In this document: positions 19,634-40,156 of the stretch, piece by piece
Layout: every line of letters starts with the position of its first letter
Numbering within the stretch: position 1 is the first letter of the stretch
Source of the DNA: Gemmatimonadaceae bacterium
GTDB lineage: Bacteria > Gemmatimonadota > Gemmatimonadetes > Gemmatimonadales > Gemmatimonadaceae
Direction of reading: 5' to 3'
Length of the DNA stretch: 64,000 bases
Assembly: GCA_020851455.1 (NCBI GenBank)
Contig: JADZCT010000029.1
Coordinates: 124,001-188,000, forward strand
Program-made: the position numbers and the translations under genes
The notes under the pieces: model-generated
Database searches by the model: none
Told to the model about the DNA's origin: nothing
Seen by the model: only the letters and a program-made list of their open reading frames with translations

Positions 19634-19812
19634 GTCAGGATCCTTGGGAATCAAGAGGAGGGGTAACCCGGTTGTCCATGGCTGGTGGCGTTGACCCAAC
19701 TGCCATGAGAAGACGGGTGAACGATGCGCACGCCCGGTTGGTGCAGTAACCGCATTGTTCCCGACTGCCGGTAGGGGTATCCCCGACGTCCATGCCGGGG
19801 TAATGTACGCAG
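19634..19812. promoter_or_regulatory. Divergent control region between nosZ and oligopeptidase B
   Basis: This 179-bp region holds both promoters. An 11-bp dyad, GGGGTATCCCC (19774-19784), is the clearest symmetry. A TAATGT box (19801-19806) lies 6 nt before the GTG of the rightward gene, again a leaderless arrangement. No FNR/NNR-type TTGAT-N4-ATCAA box was found, so how nosZ responds to oxygen or nitrogen oxides is not visible. Confidence 0.4.
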
Positions 19813-21900
19813 GTGAACTCCGGTAACGATCCGGCGCCGCCGGCAGCCGCGCGCATCCCCTCGCAGACCGTTCTCCACGGAGAAACCCGCGTGGACGACT
19901 ACGCGTGGTTGCGGGAGCGTTCCGATCCAGCGGTTATCGCTTACCTGGAGGCCGAGAACGCTTTCACGGACGCCGTGATGCGGCCCACCGAGGGTCTGCA
20001 ACAGACGCTCTACGACGAGATGGTCGCGCGCATCCGTGAGGACGACTCGCAGCCGCCGGTCAGGCGCGACGACTGGTACTACTACTCGCGGACCGAGCAG
20101 GGCAGGGCATACCCCATCTATTGCCGCCGGCATGGATCGCCCGAAGCCCCCGAGGAGGTCTTCTTCGACCAGAACGAGGCCGCGTCGTGGCACGAGTACT
20201 ACCAGCTTGGGGCGCTGGCGGTAAGCCCGGACCACCGCCACCTCGCCCTGCTGGTGGACACCAGTGGTTACGAGGCGTTCACGCTTCGGATCCTCGACCT
20301 CGCAACCGGCGTGTGGCTGGCCGACAGCGTGGACAACCTCGGGTTCGGGCTTGCATGGGCCAGCGATGGGGCAACGGTGTTCTACACGACCACCGACGAG
20401 GCGAAGCGCAGCAACGCGGTTTGGCGGCACCGGATCGGCGCGCCGACGGAGGCCGACGCCCCGGTTTACCGCGACGACGATCCGGCATTCAACGTAGGCG
20501 TTGCGCGCGCGCGTGACGGGCGCTGGGTCGTGGTGTCGAGCGCAAGCTTCACGAGCGGAGAGACGTGGCTTGTGGACGCACACGCGCCGGACACTCCGCC
20601 CGTATGCGTCCGACGGCGGCAGCCGGGCGTGGAGTACGAGGTGTCGCCCGGCGGCGACTGGCTGTACGTGCTTACGAACGAAGGCGGAGCGCGCGACTTC
20701 AAGGTGATGCGCGCCAGCGCGTCGTCCCCTGCCGGGTGGCGCGAGTGGCTGGAACACCGTCCGGGAGTATTCGTCGAGGGCATTGACGTCTTCCGCCGTC
20801 ACGCAGTGGTGCTGGAGCGGCATGACGGGTTGCGCAGGGTCAGGATCATCCTTCTTGGCGATCACGCTGCCGCGGCGGGGCGGGCGCCGGCCGCCGAGCC
20901 GGATTCGTTCTTCGTGGACTTTCCCGAGCCCGCCTACGATGTGACGCCAGGGTCAAACCCCGAGTTCGACACGGGCGTCTACAGGTTCACCTATTCTTCC
21001 TTCGTCACGCCGGATTCGGTCTACGACTTCGACGTCGTCACCCGAAGCCGCGCGCTTCTCAAGCGCGACGACGTACTCGGTGGCTACGATCCCGCCGCCT
21101 ACCAGGTGGAGCGAATCGGGGCGCGGGCGCGGGACGGAGCCGTGGTGCCCATCTCCCTGGTGTACCGCACGTCGTTCGCGCGTGACGGCGCCCGGCCGCT
21201 GCTGCTTTACGCGTACGGCGCCTACGGCTACAGCACGGAAGCGCGCTTCGACCATTCACGCGTTTCGCTGCTGGATCGGGGCTTCGTGTTCGCCATCGCG
21301 CACGTCCGCGGCGGGCAGGAGATGGGCCGGGCGTGGTATGACGACGGCAGGATGATGAAGAAGATGAACACGTTCGCCGACTTCATTGACTGCGCGGAAC
21401 ACCTGATAACGGAGGGCTATACGCGACGCGAGCGACTCGTGGCGCGCGGCGGCAGCGCCGGCGGTCTGCTCGTGGGGGCCGTGGCCAATATGCGGCCCGA
21501 CCTGTTCAGGGCGATCGTCGCGGACGTTCCGTTCGTGGATGTGATCAACACCATGCTCGACGACACGATTCCGCTCACGGCGCAGGAGTGGGAACAGTGG
21601 GGGAATCCGCGATCGCGTGAGGCGTATGAGTACATGCGCAGGTATTCGCCGTACGACAACGTGCGGCCAGCGGACTATCCGGCGATCCTGGCGACGAGCG
21701 GGATCAACGATCCGCGGGTGGCGTTCTGGGAACCTGCCAAGTGGGTGGCGAAGCTCCGGGCAACCAGGACGGGCGGCGGCACGCTCCTGCTCAGGATGAA
21801 GATGGAGTCCGGCCACGGAGGTGCGTCGGGGCGCTACGGCCGAATCCGCGAGCAGGCGTTCCGTTACGCGTTCATCCTTCGCGAGGCCGGTGCCGCGTGA
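19813..21900 (+). CDS. ptrB: Oligopeptidase B-like S9 serine peptidase
   Basis: This gene encodes 695 residues from a GTG start, the usual size for oligopeptidase B. The N-terminal half is a beta-propeller (DDYAWLRERSDPAVIAYLEAEN opening, given by its key residues). The catalytic domain has the nucleophile in RGGSAGGLLVGAV, the acid in TSGINDPRV and the His in MESGHGGASGR. Upstream of the nucleophile are AYGAYGYS and HVRGGQEMGRAWY, both diagnostic for PtrB. The family cleaves short peptides after Arg or Lys. No signal peptide is present, so it is probably cytoplasmic. Confidence 0.9.
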   Translation: MNSGNDPAPPAAARIPSQTVLHGETRVDDYAWLRERSDPAVIAYLEAENAFTDAVMRPTEGLQQTLYDEMVARIREDDSQPPVRRDDWYYYSRTEQGRAYPIYCRRHGSPEAPEEVFFDQNEAASWHEYYQLGALAVSPDHRHLALLVDTSGYEAFTLRILDLATGVWLADSVDNLGFGLAWASDGATVFYTTTDEAKRSNAVWRHRIGAPTEADAPVYRDDDPAFNVGVARARDGRWVVVSSASFTSGETWLVDAHAPDTPPVCVRRRQPGVEYEVSPGGDWLYVLTNEGGARDFKVMRASASSPAGWREWLEHRPGVFVEGIDVFRRHAVVLERHDGLRRVRIILLGDHAAAAGRAPAAEPDSFFVDFPEPAYDVTPGSNPEFDTGVYRFTYSSFVTPDSVYDFDVVTRSRALLKRDDVLGGYDPAAYQVERIGARARDGAVVPISLVYRTSFARDGARPLLLYAYGAYGYSTEARFDHSRVSLLDRGFVFAIAHVRGGQEMGRAWYDDGRMMKKMNTFADFIDCAEHLITEGYTRRERLVARGGSAGGLLVGAVANMRPDLFRAIVADVPFVDVINTMLDDTIPLTAQEWEQWGNPRSREAYEYMRRYSPYDNVRPADYPAILATSGINDPRVAFWEPAKWVAKLRATRTGGGTLLLRMKMESGHGGASGRYGRIREQAFRYAFILREAGAA

Positions 21901-38302: not shown

Positions 38303-38333
38303 CAAAAAAATGGGCCGGCGTGCGCCGGCCCAT
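38303..38333 (-). terminator. Rho-independent terminator for the 60-residue membrane protein gene
   Basis: On the minus strand, a ten-pair GC-rich stem built on ATGGGCCGGC is followed by a run of seven T. This is the only textbook intrinsic terminator in the window. It lies 20 nt after the stop of the small gene. Confidence 0.9.
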
Positions 38334-38353: not shown

Positions 38354-38536
38354 CTACTTGCCCTTCGCGGCCTTCTTCGCGGCGCGCGCGTCCTGGATCC
38401 ACGCGAGCGGCATGAGGAACAGTGGCGTGAGGAACATGCCGAGGAGCGTGTTCACCCAGAGGAGCGCGGTGAAGAAGGCGCCGAGGCCAATGCCGGCAAC
38501 GAGAATGCCGAGTGGTCCGCCGTAGAAGGTCTCCAT
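38354..38536 (-). CDS. Small membrane protein, 60 residues
   Basis: The protein from the ATG at 38536 has two hydrophobic helices (PLGILVAGIGLGAFFTALLW and LLGMFLTPLFLMPLAWI) and a basic tail (DARAAKKAAKGK). Support for its reality comes from a TAAGAT box 7 nt before the ATG and a strong terminator just after it, so it is its own transcription unit. No family is recognised. Confidence 0.75.
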   Translation of the reverse strand: METFYGGPLGILVAGIGLGAFFTALLWVNTLLGMFLTPLFLMPLAWIQDARAAKKAAKGK

Positions 38537-38554
38537 GCGCAATATCTTAGCAGC
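38537..38554. promoter_or_regulatory. Shared bidirectional -10 element between the 60-residue gene and tilS
   Basis: Only 18 bp separate the two divergent start codons. TATCTTA (38543-38549) reads as TATCTT on the plus strand, 6 nt before the tilS ATG. It reads as TAAGAT on the minus strand, 7 nt before the other ATG. Both transcripts would be leaderless. Confidence 0.5.
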
Positions 38555-39532
38555 ATGCCGACGAGCGGTAAAGCGGGTGCGCGCTCCGGAGCCGCCGGGG
38601 GCGCTGAAGGCGCTGTATTTCGCGCGGTGGAGTCGCTGCCTCCTGGGCCGTGGCTGCTCGCCGTCTCGGGAGGCCGCGACTCCATGGTTCTGATGGATGC
38701 GTGTGACGCCCGGCGCCGCGGCGACATCGCCGCGGTGGCAACGTACGACCACGGCACGGGCCCCGCCGCGACGCGTGCGGCCATGCACGTCGAGGCAGAG
38801 GCGTTGCGGCGGTCCCTCCCAGTGGTTGCCGGCAGGTCGTCGAGGCCGGTGGAGGCGGTCGGCGAGGCGGCATGGCGGAGCGCGCGCTGGGCCTTCCTCG
38901 ACGGATGGGCGGCGGATCTCCGCTCCCGCGTCGTTACGGCGCACACCCGCGACGACCAGGCGGAGACGATCTTCATGCGACTCCTGCGCGGCGCCGGCCC
39001 GCGAGGGATGGCGGCGATGCGGGCGCCGACGCCGGTGCTGCGCCCCTTCCTCGGCCTCGACCGCGCGACCATCGCCCTTTACGCCGCCGCGCGGCGCGTG
39101 AAGTGGGTCGAGGATCCGTCGAACCAGCGGCTGGTTCATTTCCGCAACCGCGTGCGGCTCGAACTCCTCCCGGCGTTCGAGGAGGCGCGGCCGGGCTTCA
39201 CCGACTGGCTCGTCTCCCTCGGCGAGCGAGCGGCCGAGGTCCGGGATGGGATCGCGCGCGCGGTGGACGCGCTCTCCGGCGTTGCCGACGCAGGTTCTGG
39301 AGGCAAGGCGGTTGCGGTGGCGTCAACGGCGCTGGAGGGGTATGGCGAGGCGGAGCTGGAACTGCTCTGGCCCGAGATCGCGGCGCGCGCGCGGGTCGCG
39401 CTGGACAGGCGCGGCCTGAAGCGCCTTGTCGCGGAAGCGGCGCGGCTGAGGGTGGGCGCGGCGATCCCGCTTGCCGGGGGCGCCAGCGTATCGCGCACCG
39501 TGTCTACGCTCGTGGTTCGGGCCGGTGAGTGA
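38555..39532 (+). CDS. tilS: tRNA(Ile)-lysidine synthase
   Basis: This gene encodes 325 residues from the ATG at 38555. The PP-loop is LLAVSGGRDSM (SGGRDS at about 38-43), followed by AAWRSARWAFLDGW, TAHTRDDQAETIFMRLLRGAGPRG and DPSNQRLVHFRNRVRLELLP, all conserved in TilS. The C-terminal substrate-binding part is short. The enzyme converts C34 of CAU-tRNA-Ile2 to lysidine so that it reads AUA. It begins the conserved tilS-hpt-ftsH order. Confidence 0.95.
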   Translation: MPTSGKAGARSGAAGGAEGAVFRAVESLPPGPWLLAVSGGRDSMVLMDACDARRRGDIAAVATYDHGTGPAATRAAMHVEAEALRRSLPVVAGRSSRPVEAVGEAAWRSARWAFLDGWAADLRSRVVTAHTRDDQAETIFMRLLRGAGPRGMAAMRAPTPVLRPFLGLDRATIALYAAARRVKWVEDPSNQRLVHFRNRVRLELLPAFEEARPGFTDWLVSLGERAAEVRDGIARAVDALSGVADAGSGGKAVAVASTALEGYGEAELELLWPEIAARARVALDRRGLKRLVAEAARLRVGAAIPLAGGASVSRTVSTLVVRAGE

Positions 39533-39563
39533 ACCCGCGGGCGAATTGCGACTATAATTATCC
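39530..39563 (+). promoter_or_regulatory. Putative leaderless promoter of hpt-ftsH
   Basis: A perfect TATAAT (39553-39558) lies 5 nt before the ATG at 39564. The -35 is weak (TGAACC at 39530-39535, 17-nt spacer). No Shine-Dalgarno is present, so hpt is probably translated from a leaderless mRNA even though tilS is just upstream. Confidence 0.6.
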
Positions 39564-40156
39564 ATGATGACGGTTGCAGCTTCATCCGCCGCTGGCGTGG
39601 CCGACCCGCGCCTTCTGGGTCGCGACGTTCGCAGGATCGCGTTCGACGCCGAGACTCTCCGCGCTCGGGTGCGCGAGCTTGGCGCGGAAATCACGGCCGC
39701 GTACCCGGACGGGGATCTTCACGTGCTCGGCCTCCTGAAGGGAAGCTTCGTGTTTCTTGCGGATCTGGTGCGCGAGATACGCCGGCCGTTGTACGTGGAC
39801 TTCGTCGTGGCCGCCAGCTATGGCGACGCGATGGTGTCGTCGGGGCACGTGCGCCTGGTGTACGCGCCGGAGGCGAGCCTCGAGGGCAAGCATATTCTGC
39901 TCGTCGAGGACATAGTTGACTCCGGCCGGACGCTGCAGGAGTTGAAGTCGCTTCTGTCGGCCCGGCGGCCGCGCTCGCTGGAGATATGCGCGCTGCTGCA
40001 CAAGCGCATCGCCGCCCAGCCGGCGGTGCCCGTGCGGTTCGTCGGCTTCGATGCGCCAAACGAGTTCCTGGTCGGGTACGGGCTGGACCACGCCGAGAAT
40101 TTTCGCCACCTGCCGTACGTGGCGAGCCTGAAGCAATCAGAGGCAGTGACTGACCG

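Follow-up and report, generated by a model that had tools for sequence, protein, structure and literature searches.

A predicted bidirectional promoter with one near-symmetric -10 element in the 18-bp gap between tilS and a divergent small gene in Gemmatimonadaceae

How two divergent genes could both be transcribed from the few base pairs that separate them is the question raised by one locus in a 2.96-Mb draft genome of a Gemmatimonadaceae bacterium. The window analysed here is a stretch of 64,000 nt from that genome, in which a 60-aa gene on the minus strand and tilS on the plus strand are divided by exactly 18 bp, GCGCAATATCTTAGCAGC (Table 1), the ATG of the small gene lying at 38536-38534 and that of tilS at 38555-38557. 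A sequence-only reading had proposed that TATCTTA in this gap is a single -10 element used in both directions, and the coordinates and spacings that it gave are correct: 6 nt (38549-38554) separate TATCTT from the tilS ATG and 7 nt (38543-38537) separate TAAGAT from the ATG of the small gene. The comparative analysis presented here makes it likely that the gap is a bidirectional promoter of the housekeeping type, with one near-symmetric -10 and both genes leaderless.

Table 1. Features of the tilS/small-gene locus in window coordinates; promoter parts and leaderless starts are predictions.
Feature	Position	Strand	Remarks
Shared -10, TATCTTA / TAAGATA	38543..38549		forward hexamer TATCTT 38543-38548, reverse hexamer TAAGAT 38549-38544; TANNNTA in 40/40 loci
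18-bp intergenic region, predicted core of a bidirectional promoter whose two starts coincide with or adjoin the ATGs	38537..38554		identical 18-bp layout in G032
tilS, tRNA(Ile)-lysidine synthetase; leaderless start predicted	38555..39532	+	TIGR02432, PF01171; 6-nt spacing in 40/40 relatives
Small-protein gene (60 aa, hydrophobic, conserved); leaderless start predicted in this genome, leader present in most relatives	38354..38536	-	
TTTACC, -35-like hexamer for the small gene	38567..38572	-	within tilS codons 5-6, 17 bp from TAAGAT
TGC preceding TAAGAT (extended -10, small-gene direction)	38550..38552	-	G at -14 in 33/40 loci (column 8 = C)
Intrinsic-terminator-like hairpin and T run directly after the small gene	38310..38333	-	10-pair stem, TTTTTT tail

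Both genes that flank the gap are real. The match of TilS to TIGR02432 is above cutoff, and PF01171 is matched as well; the closest relatives of this tilS that carry a name are from Gemmatimonadaceae. The 60-aa protein belongs to no family in Pfam or NCBIfam; relatives of it, with which its start aligns, are present in 164 of the 179 genomes available for the family, and at nearly every locus examined its gene adjoins tilS and diverges from it. Given the terminator-like hairpin directly downstream of the small gene, the transcript is likely to carry that one gene. The site is not called by a consensus promoter scan, since such a scan demands a good -35.

RNA polymerase with the housekeeping sigma factor would melt TATCTTA from either orientation. 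In the tilS direction it would read TATCTT, with no recognisable -35, and start at the A of the ATG or beside it to give a leaderless mRNA. In the small-gene direction it would use the extended -10 TGC-TAAGAT together with a TT-type -35 in tilS codons 5-6, and a start at the ATG or one base before it would again yield a leaderless mRNA. By the -7 rule tilS would start at 38555, the A of its ATG, and the small gene at 38537, one base before its ATG and 18 bp away; one base further on lies the A of the small-gene ATG itself, so that the predicted starts are 18-19 bp apart. Opposed polymerases should exclude each other, because A-11 and T-7 of one direction are T-7 and A-11 of the other.

Leaderless starts of this kind look common in the window genome, given how TANNNT is enriched shortly before gene starts: across 1.2 Mb of the 2.96 Mb, with genes taken from a simple home-made gene finder, TANNNT stands 6 nt before 23 operon-first ATGs against 3.0 expected per position (Poisson, 3e-13), with 11 further cases each at 7 and 8 nt. 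TANNNT-N6-ATG, the arrangement at tilS, is thus the commonest leaderless layout of this genome, and the small gene with its 7 nt falls within the same range of about 6-8 nt. The signal is confined to gene starts, as TANNNT-N6-ATG counted over the whole genome is not enriched (157 against 161 in the control). The counts point to leaderless genes being common in this lineage. Immediately beyond tilS, at 39550-39572 of the window, TATAAT lies 5 and 8 nt upstream of two consecutive ATGs of a phosphoribosyltransferase gene, another start of leaderless type.

Junctions between tilS and the small gene were gathered from relatives, giving a set of 40 shared-promoter loci from three genera (g1, g29 and g31; 17+11+12) and a comparison set of 25 distant loci. 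In every one of the 40, exactly 6 nt separate a TANNNTA, mainly TATCTTA or TATGTTA, from the tilS start codon (ATG or GTG), whereas anywhere from 6 to 76 nt lie between the element and the small gene. On the tilS tree T0, A1, T5 and A6 of the element show zero changes, against 5-16 in the other spacer columns, and the upstream flank has diverged nearly to randomness (0.0-0.6 bits per column). A-11 and T-7 are therefore reciprocal within one element throughout the set, all four of the bases concerned being unchanged. The fixed spacing bears on the reading in which only the small-gene promoter is real and tilS is transcribed with a leader from further upstream. The reverse direction does carry more promoter elements, namely an extended -10 and a -35-like TT, but a reverse promoter has no need of a constant 6-nt distance to tilS; moreover, a leaderless-type TANNNT is kept at tilS in distant genera, and the tilS layout is the one most used by leaderless-type genes in the window genome. 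That reading is accordingly very improbable.

The opposite simplification holds that the promoter is a one-way leaderless tilS promoter, that transcripts of the small gene come from elsewhere, either from a start within tilS or through read-through, and that the reverse reading is due to chance. It gains something from the leaderless -10 preference of the window genome, TA[T/G]NTT, which TATCTT fits better than TAAGAT does, and from 25 further loci in which tilS retains a TANNNT, 5-8 nt ahead of a potential start codon. It fails to account for the A that follows TANNNT, a base specific to the reverse -10: this A is present in 40 of 40 shared loci and in 2 of 25 distant tilS loci, and the corresponding position is A in 11 of 58 other leaderless-type sites of the window genome. 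Nor does column conservation reveal any other conserved -10 in the small-gene leader of the shared group. In most distant loci, by comparison, a separate TATCTT-like -10 lies some 22-45 nt upstream of the small gene.

A second constraint on the reverse direction lies inside tilS. Codon 6, whose AA sits at the -35 position of the small-gene promoter with a 17-bp spacer, reads GAA or AAA at all 40 loci that share the promoter, and in none of the 25 distant loci does it end in AA. The codon has undergone 5 Lys/Glu interchanges on the tilS tree and no change of its third base, against a mean of 13.1 changes over 298 tilS third positions, of which only those of start or Met codons are as fixed. In the background, GAA and GAG stand at 196 : 464 and AAA and AAG at 20 : 61. 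T is likewise enriched at -23 and -22, the same -35 positions, across the 58 leaderless-type sites of the window genome. A promoter can, it appears, keep a synonymous position of the adjacent gene from changing. The sequence-only reading had placed the -35 regions of both directions inside the opposite coding sequences; this may hold for the small-gene direction, with the -35-like TTTACC and its invariant TT at a 17-bp spacer, and not for the tilS direction, where no -35 is conserved. The reverse -10 is also extended, 33 of the 40 loci having G at -14 and the window a full TGC-TAAGAT.

The one-way tilS promoter is thus unlikely, and the proposal that one -10 serves both directions has found comparative support. 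Conservation of bases that are specific to each direction argues for RNA being made both ways, and provides natural comparative evidence that use of the reverse -10 is under selection rather than noise. Since most distant small genes carry a -10 of their own, promoter sharing and its two constraints, the reverse A and codon 6, appear and vanish together.

Strong conservation by itself is no proof of promoter function, and compact palindromic operators exist. A further alternative to the two-way promoter would have TATCTTA serve as an operator bound by a regulator, or codon 6 act as a downstream signal for translation. The distances of 6-7 nt from the element to the start and of 17 bp to the TT, however, are those of a promoter, the site agrees with the genome-wide -10 and -35 preferences, and the codon-6 AA is absent where tilS is of leaderless type without sharing its promoter, all of which leaves this explanation with a very small probability. 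Two variants among the relatives are recorded here. In L112 (G146) the element is inverted, so that TAAGATA faces tilS and TATCTTA faces the small gene; the 6-nt spacing and the codon-6 AA are retained. In L161 and L165 (genus g7) TAACTTA lies 6 nt before tilS, there is no other clear -10 for the small gene and the codon-6 AA is absent; these loci are a possible independent case of promoter sharing.

The bidirectional promoter need not be leaderless on both sides. With the tilS spacing fixed and the distance to the small gene variable, one element appears in most relatives to serve a leaderless-type tilS and a leadered small gene. The sequence-only reading took both products to be leaderless, which is upheld as a prediction for the window genome and G032 and does not extend to the other relatives, where the small gene has a leader of 32-76 nt. 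The two genomes with the doubly leaderless 18-bp form form a pair on the tilS tree and share the layout with different flanks, the gap in G032 reading CAT GGCGCG TATCTTA ATGAG ATG. Because the form at tilS is present in only two related genomes, it could be the product of one historical deletion.

The same layout occurs once more in the genome. The full pattern CAY-N6-TANNNTA-N5-RTG has 2 occurrences in the 2.96 Mb, against 0 for the reversed-pattern control, and both fall exactly between divergent genes. The second (G000:C93:3454-3477; loci L212, L284-L287, L290 and L298) is an 18-bp gap between holB, encoding DNA polymerase III delta', and a divergent gene that we take, from its sequence, to encode a P1-family (DmpA-like) peptidase; an NCBIfam search with a longer frame of this gene returned no family. 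Six genomes of the genus to which the window genome belongs carry CAT-N6-TATCTTA-N5-GTG at holB, with the peptidase frame starting at that CAT in 6/6, while the holB layout of other members of the genus differs, TATCTT being followed in most by T, G or C. In g31, 8 matches fall exactly on the holB start and 7 of them have the peptidase gene divergent beside it; in the eighth, G144, a P1-family-like peptidase gene was not found on the holB contig. The 18-bp form at holB therefore spans 14 genomes of two genera, with an adjoining divergent peptidase gene in 13. The holB copy has no TT at the -35 positions of a 17-bp spacer.

Searches across the family delimit this recurrence. TATSTTA in the symmetric pattern gave 18 matches against 1 in the control in the 35 genomes of g1 and g31, and 4 against 14 in the other 144 genomes; the loose pattern with any TANNNTA is not enriched across the family (62 against about 68). 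The loci surrounding tilS, pooled across the family, were left out of the statistics because the same orthologues are repeated. On balance, Gemmatimonadaceae probably have a recurrent 18-bp promoter class in which a single TATCTTA would yield two fully leaderless divergent mRNAs, the start codon coinciding with or adjoining the start site and the outer elements being able to constrain codons of the opposite gene; it would include at least tilS and holB, and would have arisen at tilS through collapse of a leader.

Other compact arrangements were encountered in the course of these searches. At G000:C87:107203-107230 (L278) a 22-bp gap that holds two abutting -10s of leaderless type (CAT GGTACAACCCTAAGTTTAACGA ATG) separates trpS from a divergent inositol-monophosphatase-like gene, and at G000:C85:83345-83370 (L267) a 25-bp gap between a response-regulator-like gene and an unnamed divergent gene holds overlapping TATATT and TATACT. 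Two candidates were rejected: a 17-bp version at C45:52943-52965 is not a divergent pair, one side being a mere 32-aa frame, and the CAT of a 19-bp pattern at 19791-19815 of the window is not a gene start, the nearest predicted minus-strand gene beginning at about 19633.

If the locus works as proposed, a two-way -10 and leaderless genes would be joined at about the smallest size possible, 18 bp between two working genes. Should the polymerases exclude each other, tRNA modification by TilS would be tied to expression of a conserved small hydrophobic protein. No Gemmatimonas start-site map was found in the literature searched, and a survey of bacterial leaderless genes (PMC3160421) does not name Gemmatimonas. 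Neither was any bacterial report found there that joins a bidirectional -10 to leaderless genes, although coverage was incomplete and this absence is weak evidence.

Each half of the arrangement is known, and what appears to be new is their fusion. Like the tilS locus, ordinary divergent promoter pairs have two divergent genes with the control between them, but their -10s are separate and tens of bp apart, which is the state in the majority of distant genera. A -10 adjacent to the open reading frame gives leaderless mRNA in Deinococcus-Thermus (PMC12340547) and in mycobacteria (PMC3898074), and these promoters share with the tilS locus a TANNNT that precedes the start codon by a few nt and often lacks an accompanying -35; the Deinococcus paper (PMC12340547) does not mention divergent or bidirectional use. 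Symmetrical -10 elements that fire both ways have, as the sequence-only reading stated, already been reported in bacteria: in the bidirectional promoters described by Warman and Grainger the -10 is near-symmetric, A-11 and T-7 are reciprocal and the divergent starts lie 7-25 bp apart, most often 18 (PMC12825309, PMC10268837), while leaderless products are not mentioned (PMC12825309). The tilS element resembles these promoters in its one near-symmetric -10, its reciprocal A-11/T-7 and predicted starts 18 or 19 bp apart, and differs from them in being bounded by two start codons and in having a conserved -35-like element inside the opposite gene.
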